DNA from: Candidatus Adamsella avium
Lineage (GTDB): Bacteria; Cyanobacteriota; Vampirovibrionia; Gastranaerophilales; CAJFVJ01
NCBI GenBank assembly: GCA_904420445.1
Contig: CAJFVJ010000002.1
Coordinates: 186,001 to 250,000, forward strand
Direction of reading: 5' to 3'
Length of the DNA stretch: 64,000 bases
The notes beneath the pieces were generated by a model that made no database searches, was not told where the DNA came from, and worked only from the letters and a program-made list of their open reading frames with translations. Positions 12,357 through 48,436 of the stretch are shown here, one piece after another. The translations under genes were made by a program, and so were the position numbers. Position 1 is the stretch's first letter; each line of letters begins with the position of its first letter.

Positions 12357-12450
12357 TTTTTTTCCCTCTTCTTCAAATCTTACAATTTATTATATTATGA
12401 TGAATTTTTGTAAGCTATTATTTGTAATTTTTCTCTTAACAAATCGGGAT

Positions 12451-12591
12451 TTATATAGCAAATACCACAGGAACTATTAAAGACCAGTCATTCTGAGGGC
12501 TTTAGCCTGAAGAATCTTTTTTTGTTTAGATACTTTGCTAACGCTTAGTATGACGTTGGTTTTGGAATTGTTGGCGGAATTTGCTATATAA
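12451..12591 (+). repeat. palindromic MITE-like repeat, copy A
   Basis: A 141-bp non-coding element bounded by inverted repeats TTATATAGCAAATACC (12451-12466) and GGAATTTGCTATATAA (12576-12591). Inner inverted segments (GTCATTCTGAG at 12487-12497 against CTTAGTATGAC at 12544-12554, and TTTAGCCTGAAG near 12500) let most of it fold into one long hairpin. An 11-base direct repeat TAACAAATCGG flanks it at 12437-12447 and 12596-12606. A second copy lies inverted at 47558-47679. No transposase gene is in the window. Confidence 0.85.
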
Positions 12592-12691
12592 GTTCTAACA
12601 AATCGGTATGCAAAAAAATTTTTTGTTTGATGTAGAATTTTATTAAAACTATATGGCATTAGAATAAAATTGTATGAAAAAGGAATAAATA

Positions 12692-47480: not shown

Positions 47481-47557
47481 AGCAATTTTGATATAAATTT
47501 TTTACATCGAAATTATACCAAAAATAACGTTGAAAGAGTAAAGCAAAAATTAGGAAC

Positions 47558-47679
47558 TTATATAGCAAATTCCTCCAAAAATTTCCAAAACAACGTCATA
47601 CTTAGCGTTAGCGAAGTTCTTCAGGCTAAACCCTCAGAATGACAAACTTTTAATAGTATCTGTGGAATTTTCTATATAA
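47558..47679 (-). repeat. palindromic MITE-like repeat, copy B (inverted)
   Basis: 122-bp element between tlyA and the membrane-protein genes. Ends are TTATATAGCAAATTCC (47558-47573) and GGAATTTTCTATATAA (47664-47679). Inner inverted segments GTCATACTTAG (47595-47605) and CTCAGAATGAC (47633-47643) pair. It is the reverse complement of copy A, with about 19 fewer bases at the hairpin tip. Outside the core, GGGAT on one side and AGTTC on the other also match copy A, so the true ends may lie a few bases further out. Confidence 0.85.
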
Positions 47680-47689
47680 ATCCCAAAAA

Positions 47690-48436
47690 TTACTTCAGGA
47701 AGCTTTTGAAAGTGCTCATAGCCTGAGCATTTTTTGTTCTGCTCAGCTGACCTGCTCTGACAAGTTGTTCTTGAGGGTTTACGCTTATTTTCTGAACGGC
47801 AGGTTGTTTAGCCATTTCTTTTTCTTCTTTTCTTTTCTGTATTTTTGCTGTTATTTTCTTTGTCAGAGGAGTTGCAATTACCGGAGTAATGTATCTGTAC
47901 ATAAATGCGAAGCACAGACCAGTTGCTGCGTTTCTTGCAACACCTTTTTTGAGAGCGGCGAAATCACCGTCTTTATAATGTTTTGCTGCCCAATCCAGAT
48001 ATTTTTTGCCTTTTCCGCCTTCATTTGCTTTTTCGAAGGCGTCACCGAGTTTCCCGAACAATTTCAGAATAGGCTTATCAAGGGCGATAGCTCCTGCTGT
48101 CGGGATAGCCCAGGTTATGGCGTTGTTTATGGCGAGAGGTTTTTTGTTCTTTTCTTCTATATTTTTATTCGCAAGTGTTTGTATAATATAGAAAGAGCTG
48201 AGAACGGTGCTTACACCTATGATACACCCCTGTCTGAGCCAGCCGGATTTTCCTGCGTCGGTAACTTTTTTGATAAATTTTTCGATGCCTTTTGATTTTG
48301 CAACTTTTTCCAAACCGAGTTCTACAGTGTCGCTTAGTTTATCGCTGGCTTGTGATAGAACTTTTGGTACTCCTGTGAAGGTTACGTTGCTCTTGTTTCG
48401 AGCAGACATGTTAGGTTGAACTCTATTTACTTGCAT
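47690..48436 (-). CDS. lineage-type membrane protein with N-terminal TFTG motif
   Basis: 248 residues, no known family. The N-terminus MQVNRVQPNMSARNKSNVTFTG is polar and ends with T-F-T-G at 19-22, a pattern shared with neighbouring proteins. Hydrophobic helices lie near 70-88 (CIIGVSTVLSSFYIIQ), 105-125 (AITWAIPTAGAIAL) and 168-190 (AATGLCFAFMYRYITPVIATP). The C-terminal region is Lys/Gln-rich. AAGGAGC ribosome-binding site; overlaps the upstream gene by 14 bases. Not a typical signal peptide. Confidence 0.78.
   Translation of the reverse strand: MQVNRVQPNMSARNKSNVTFTGVPKVLSQASDKLSDTVELGLEKVAKSKGIEKFIKKVTDAGKSGWLRQGCIIGVSTVLSSFYIIQTLANKNIEEKNKKPLAINNAITWAIPTAGAIALDKPILKLFGKLGDAFEKANEGGKGKKYLDWAAKHYKDGDFAALKKGVARNAATGLCFAFMYRYITPVIATPLTKKITAKIQKRKEEKEMAKQPAVQKISVNPQEQLVRAGQLSRTKNAQAMSTFKSFLK

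Follow-up and report, generated by a model that had tools for sequence, protein, structure and literature searches.

An element of 151 bp in the window (the whole 64,000-nt stretch of DNA that was analysed) is very probably a miniature inverted-repeat transposable element (MITE) of the IS1595 family, which is moved by the transposase of cargo-carrying transposons, is targeted to promoters and has a pair of REP-like palindromes as its passenger. According to this model, IS1595-type cargo transposons of 8-12 kb in related gut Gastranaerophilales supply a transposase that would recognise the 21-bp ends of the MITE and would insert the MITE while duplicating 8 bp of AT-rich target. Its favoured site would be a sigma-70 promoter, used in either orientation, with a -35 box that begins 4 bp past the duplicated 8 bp, that is, 12 bp from the end of the element. 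The promoter would stay intact and the MITE would occupy the place of an UP element or of the binding of an upstream regulator, with the inner CGTC-REP-like palindromes carried along. We consider it fairly likely, in addition, that a lineage of IS1595-family transposases independently evolved targeting to a fixed point upstream of sigma-70 promoters and that the MITE disperses CGTC-REP dimers beside promoters throughout the order, using an enzyme from defence-gene transposons.

Boundaries, copies and empty sites

The copy from which the analysis started, copy A, spans 12446..12596 on the plus strand (the family median is 150 bp). Its terminal inverted repeats are 21 bp long (GGRAYTTATATAGCAAATTCC, starting with GG), with the left repeat (GGGATTTATATAGCAAATACC) at 12446..12466 on the plus strand and the right one at 12576..12596 on the minus strand, and they are flanked by 8-bp target-site duplications of AACAAATC at 12438..12445 and 12597..12604. 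The original prediction had recognised inverted repeats at the ends, but had drawn them as 16 bp with the outer limits at 12451 and 12591. The inner inverted repeats that it described are present as two palindromes in opposite orientation, the first a CGTC-REP-like palindrome (GTCATTCTGAGGGCTTTAGCCTGAAGAATC) at 12487..12516 on the plus strand and the second, also REP-like, at 12529..12554 on the minus strand. The 11-base direct repeat TAACAAATCGG that it saw on either side of the element is also there; however, its interpretation as a duplication of unusual length had to be given up, because the true target duplication is the 8-bp AACAAATC, to which three coincidentally matching bases are added. 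Part of the extra matches arises from the target's own GG being the same as the terminal GG of the element, and a further one arises because the last base of copy A on the right, a T (GTTCT, where the family has GTTCC), equals the T that precedes the target. The second, inverted copy proposed for the window was confirmed as copy B, at 47553..47684 on the minus strand, which is 132 bp long with an internal deletion and has a perfect 8-bp duplication of AAAAATTA at 47545..47552 and 47685-47692.

Across the family, identity between left and right flanks peaked solely at 8 bp when lengths from 4 to 14 were compared, in an analysis that started from 108 copies, 20 of them without a recognisable end, and in which copies with lost ends were not used. 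At 8 bp the identity was 0.84 for 49 copies in the genome of the window (G000; 2.1 Mb in three contigs), 19 of which were perfect, versus 0.36 for mismatched pairs; it was 0.83 for 17 copies in the same-genus genome G001, 0.81 for 22 copies from other genera and, with lengths 6 to 10 compared, 0.73 for 51 further copies. An IS4-type element with a duplication of 10-13 bp, considered at first, was dropped in view of the 8-bp peak.

A whole-genome count gave at least 55 non-overlapping copies in the fetched loci of G000, at least 40 of them from the first search and the others reached via unpaired terminal repeats, so the family is not limited to the two copies of the window. The inverted-repeat core had 110 matches in the same genome as against none for a reversed-pattern control. 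Evidence for insertion was provided by G001, in which the site of copy A is empty (contig CALUSR010000002.1, BRZ_CV__bin38) and holds a single TAACAAATCGG; the empty site is exact and makes the insertion evident. Usable flanks were available for 48 copies in G000, and for 16 of them the flanks were adjacent to one of the fetched loci in G001: 15 are insertion sites common to both genomes and the 16th is copy A facing its empty site. For 14 of the 32 remaining copies, which were found in G000 only, the two flanks were joined and used as a query, and they were contiguous in G001 for at least nine of the 14 among the best 40 of 147 candidates, the other five being unmatched among the matches listed. 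The junction was continuous, within one base, in eight of the nine aligned G001 empty sites; among the nine, the left end of L018 was eroded and L019 had an indel outside the junction.

The element therefore has the properties by which MITEs are recognised, being short and non-coding, with terminal inverted repeats, many copies, empty sites and a target duplication, and no transposase was found within it or nearby. Judged from these sequence comparisons, it is real and mobile. It resembles other bacterial MITEs, such as Nezha and MITEAba12, in the general features of short length, lack of coding capacity, terminal repeats and many copies. A literature search returned no paper combining Gastranaerophilales with miniature inverted-repeat transposable elements.

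Candidate partner transposons with an IS1595-type transposase

The original prediction held that the element, if a MITE, would need a transposase in trans, and its many copies, its exact empty sites and the existence of end-sharing autonomous elements in relatives all agree with this. The transposase sharing the MITE ends that was sought proved to be of the IS1595 type and to be encoded in transposons of related genomes. Two pairs of outward-facing terminal repeats lying kilobases apart delimited complete transposons, and together with later loci there are six of these: L214 (7,953 bp), L215 (11,672 bp), L364 (11,626 bp), L368 (8,217 bp), L371 (10,951 bp) and L372 (9,499 bp). Each has matching ends and a perfect 8-bp target-site duplication, the terminal repeats of L368, L371 and L372 having 2-3 mismatches. 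An IS1595-type transposase is encoded by all six; that of L214 matches the profiles PF12762 (4.6e-32) and NF033547 (2.4e-41), and those of the other five are 59-73% identical to it. In Pfam and NCBIfam scans at E 0.001, the L214 and L215 transposases matched IS1595 models and no Mutator model. Beside the transposase gene lies a gene of ~183 aa without a profile match, and at the opposite end of the transposons a DUF2130-like gene, which was identified by profile in L214 and L371 and by eye in the others. The cargo comprises AbiTii in L214, a type IIG restriction-modification protein and a PLD-SNF2 helicase in L215 (with same-looking genes in L364), an Eco57I-type methylase and a ResIII-type protein in L371, and a cytosine methylase, Vsr and an NgoFVII-type endonuclease in L372. 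By their predicted genes, these elements are a Gastranaerophilales family of 8-12-kb IS1595-type transposons in which a constant backbone (transposase, ~183-aa gene and DUF2130) is combined with exchangeable cargo. A tyrosine-integrase-like gene adjoins the cargo in several of them (L371:15171-15737, L215:9337-9942).

The passages of PMC8101967 and PMC5704250 that bear on the IS1595 family give GG ends, 8-bp duplications and passenger genes as its features, and the IS1595 insertion sequences and tIS that they cover (MTnSag1, tISCpe8) are like the present elements in having a DDE transposase, GG ends, an 8-bp duplication and possible passengers. In contrast to those, the partners described here are 8-12 kb long, carry DUF2130 together with restriction or abortive-infection cargo and are associated with a fixed promoter distance, while the window MITE carries no gene. 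The MITE has the GG ends and 8-bp duplication of an IS1595 derivative, and its ends are common to an element encoding an IS1595 transposase. These sequence features give good support to its assignment as an IS1595-type MITE.

The right terminal repeat was found, with 0-1 mismatch, in all eight loci that have a transposase at least 71% identical (those in which the transposase was unbroken or cut by the contig and had enough flank). Among relatives with 56-64% identity the terminal repeat was found with 3-4 mismatches in seven of eight loci, L244 ending too early, and it was absent at 12 loci of more distant transposases. The end found with L241, a broken 72% copy of the transposase in G076, has 4 mismatches; for L242 (71%) the contig stops before any end appears. 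The ends of the transposons extend to about 33 bp (ACTAAATAGGTT), of which the MITE matches the outer 21 alone.

At E 0.001, 43 of the 383 genomes had a match to the transposase. The partner transposase was not found in G000 or G001 in a genome search at the same threshold, PF01609 and PF12762 were each present in 0 of these 2 genomes, and the unpaired terminal repeats of G000 were mostly further MITE copies, with no transposon among them. Ten genomes have at least 10 terminal repeats (G000, G118, G052, G076, G001, G266, G044, G039, G310 and G073), and a transposase match is lacking in eight of them, the exceptions being G076 with its broken copy and G310 with a 63% relative. Conversely, terminal repeats are few (1-5 per genome) in the eight genomes whose transposase is unbroken and at least 71% identical. 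Since the repeat-rich genomes are poor in transposase, the MITE survives for the most part in genomes in which no enzyme was detected, and MITE and partner transposon rarely co-occur in these assemblies. We infer that the IS1595 transposase mobilises the MITE, and that it was probably lost from the G000 lineage after use. The rarity of co-occurrence, and the fact that the subterminal sequences differ, could instead point to another, unseen transposase (for example from a plasmid or an unsampled relative), with the IS1595 transposons only sharing its ends. This is quite unlikely, however, given that the terminal repeat closely tracks the IS1595 transposase lineage, that the duplication length and GG ends fit IS1595, and that there was no MITE match in phage or plasmid collections and no PF01609 in G000 and G001.

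Insertion at a fixed distance from promoters

As read from the sequences flanking the copies, insertions tend to one fixed distance upstream of sigma-70 promoters. With a strict promoter defined by at least 4/6 matches in the -35 box, a spacer of 16-18 and at least 5/6 matches in the -10 box, a first set of 71 unique sites included 21 in which a promoter began precisely 12 nt from the end of the element; these 71 remained after L025, L266 and L281 had been dropped as repeats, followed by sites with flanks shorter than 110 nt and sites with similar flanks. The offset prediction was written beforehand for a held-out set from G052, G076, G044 and G118 (60 new copies, 51 with both ends, 49 kept), and it held in these 49 unseen sites: a -10 box at offset 35 occurred 16 times versus a mean of 2.2, a -35 box at offset 12 occurred 11 times versus 0.7, and a promoter at offset 12 gave 13 orientation-hits versus 0.42. 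In the combined data, 34 of 120 sites (28%) have a strict promoter at offset 12, as against a mean of 0.94 and a maximum of 4 at other offsets, and a lenient test was passed by 54 of 120 (45%), as against a mean of 4.2 and a maximum of 13. Both orientations were used equally (17 and 18). The promoters appear to predate the insertions, because their boxes are readable in the G001 empty sites for several copies. A test of downstream genes gave no distinction between promoter sides (17/22) and opposite sides (16/22). The outward flanks of the transposons themselves, although few, pointed in the same direction, with a strict promoter in 2 of 23 cases versus 0.09 and a lenient one in 5 of 23 versus 0.38; at a third threshold the number was 4, equal to the maximum elsewhere.

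The target logos display an AT-rich 8-bp core within a symmetric CAA...TTG, which could explain part of the -35 signal if the transposase recognised an AT-rich palindrome, CAA-N4-W8-N4-TTG, and struck promoters merely through the TTG of their -35 boxes. At sites without a -10 box, TTG at offset 12 was still enriched (11 of 116 versus 2.6), which would favour this explanation, and enrichment of the -35 box itself at that offset was weak (11 versus 6.3). Against it are the approximately 36-fold enrichment of full promoters and the excess of -10 boxes at exactly 35 where the -35 box matched at 3/6 or fewer positions (18 of 174 versus a mean of 3.9, with one other offset also reaching 18, perhaps as a mirror effect). 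A palindrome preference is therefore rather unlikely, although by no means negligible, and targeting probably acts through promoter DNA or promoter-bound RNA polymerase and not through plain sequence preference.

In the window, copy A has a flavoprotein-like gene (minus strand) on one side and an alaS-like gene on the other, both named by eye. A candidate promoter of the alaS-like gene lies at 12609..12638 on the plus strand (-35 TGCAAA, -10 TAGAAT), with the -35 box matching at 3/6 positions at offset 12, the -10 box at 5/6 and a spacer of 18, which places it below the strict threshold; it is also present in the G001 empty site. Beside copy B, a candidate promoter at 47512..47540 on the minus strand combines a weak -35 box (TACTCT) with a perfect TATAAT at a distance of exactly 35 nt from the end of the element. 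The terminal repeat itself contains TTTGCTATATAA (12580-12591), which resembles an outward-facing extended -10 box (TGnTATAAT-like), and the MITE might by this means supply a promoter of its own.

Mutator-like transposases target promoters at 13-17 bp, according to passages of PMC3942029, a paper in which IS1595 is named in the reference list alone. The TnGBS / ISLre2 and ISKra4 elements treated in those passages likewise keep a constant distance to the -35 box when they insert upstream of it, which holds for both sides if their ends are symmetric, but the present elements have a transposase of another superfamily, as judged by the lack of a Mutator profile match, and a distance of 12 bp, not 13-17. 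Promoter targeting by IS1595 was not found in a literature search that did not cover the founding IS1595 paper (Siguier 2009), nor is it described in the passages of PMC12561309 and PMC10214660. Among bacterial DDE transposases, those of the Mutator superfamily had been reported earlier to target promoters at a fixed distance. Should an IS1595 lineage also target promoters, then targeting evolved more than once, and the two lineages would be mechanistically comparable with regard to RNA polymerase contact versus sequence preference.

The REP-like core and spread of the family

The core of the MITE has the consensus CGTCATTCTGAGGGC-TTTA-GCCCGAAGAATCC, with a CGTC tag, AT pairs and a 4-nt loop; its stem is broken by a GA/AG mismatch and its tail is partly like the CCA of CGTC REPs. 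The latter are described in passages of PMC3733652 as having a CGTC tag, a stem of 8-9 bp starting with AT pairs, a loop of 4-5 nt and a CCA tail, and are said there to lack a dedicated transposase. The CGTC tag and dimers in opposite orientation are common to both, and the CGTC-1 dimers of H. neapolitanus also lie within a longer palindrome (same passages); here, by contrast, the surrounding palindrome is itself mobile, is flanked by target duplications and has a candidate transposase. If the MITE does spread such dimers, CGTC REPs gain a route of dispersal and an orphan REP class becomes tied to mobile DNA whose enzyme family is known by name. MITEs would then place palindromes that fold close upstream of promoters in gut bacteria that have not been cultured.

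The original prediction had allowed for a REP/RNA-type element, and it was right in so far as the core is a REP-like dimer, but the mobile unit is the entire 150-bp element with its target duplication. That the core itself might be mobile, moved by a tyrosine transposase (RAYT) with the outer repeats incidental, could be suggested by the same 30-nt REP or a close variant at 12 examined loci without MITE ends in G011, G012, G015 and G018, and by the 4 of 57 matches to the REP pattern in G000 that lie outside the MITE. The other 53, counting degenerate elements, are inside it, and it is the outer repeats, not the REPs, that mark the boundaries of insertion and adjoin the 8-bp duplication; the empty sites also contradict a mobile core, making this explanation extremely unlikely. 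Free-standing CGTC-REP-like dimers without MITE ends were also seen at L123, L124, L129 and L130 (G011 and G018), in other families of the order.

A family of structured regulatory RNAs or attenuators under selection would be in keeping with the strong predicted fold (-50.1 kcal/mol, z -5.9) and with the frequent position of the element next to promoters. However, there was no Rfam match in the window, occupancy of the sites is polymorphic, and the number of pairing changes is near the shuffled expectation (438 versus 430, sd 5.2; compensatory changes 77 versus 63, sd 6.5). Because the covariation is unconvincing and orthologous copies at shared sites diverge faster than their flanks (91% versus 95% identity; 15 pairs, one skipped), there is no sign of a fold kept by selection, and we regard an RNA family as very unlikely. 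REP unit 2 (12529-12554) is the most conserved part of the family alignment (0.96 versus 0.83-0.91 elsewhere). The reading that we favour is still that of a REP pair riding within an IS1595-type MITE.

With up to 2 mismatches, the terminal repeat was found in 88 of the 383 genomes of the order and in 26 of its 52 genera, and a reversed control had almost no matches among the same 383 genomes. Full-length copies occur in genera of another family of the order, the best being 92% identical to the consensus. Gut Gastranaerophilales MAGs supply the best relatives of the alaS-like gene, and outside G001 its protein is about 60% identical in the relatives. Since full-length MITE copies this similar exist despite the low alaS identity, the MITE has probably moved between families of the order. 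Twelve exact matches to the terminal-repeat core in viral contigs were read as chance, because the two inspected in detail (L188 and L193) occupy one position in a shared coding sequence and there was no MITE around any of the 12. With regard to other neighbours, the insertion sites of L015, L033 and L166 adjoin apparent tRNA genes (by eye), and some insertion flanks are terminator-like.
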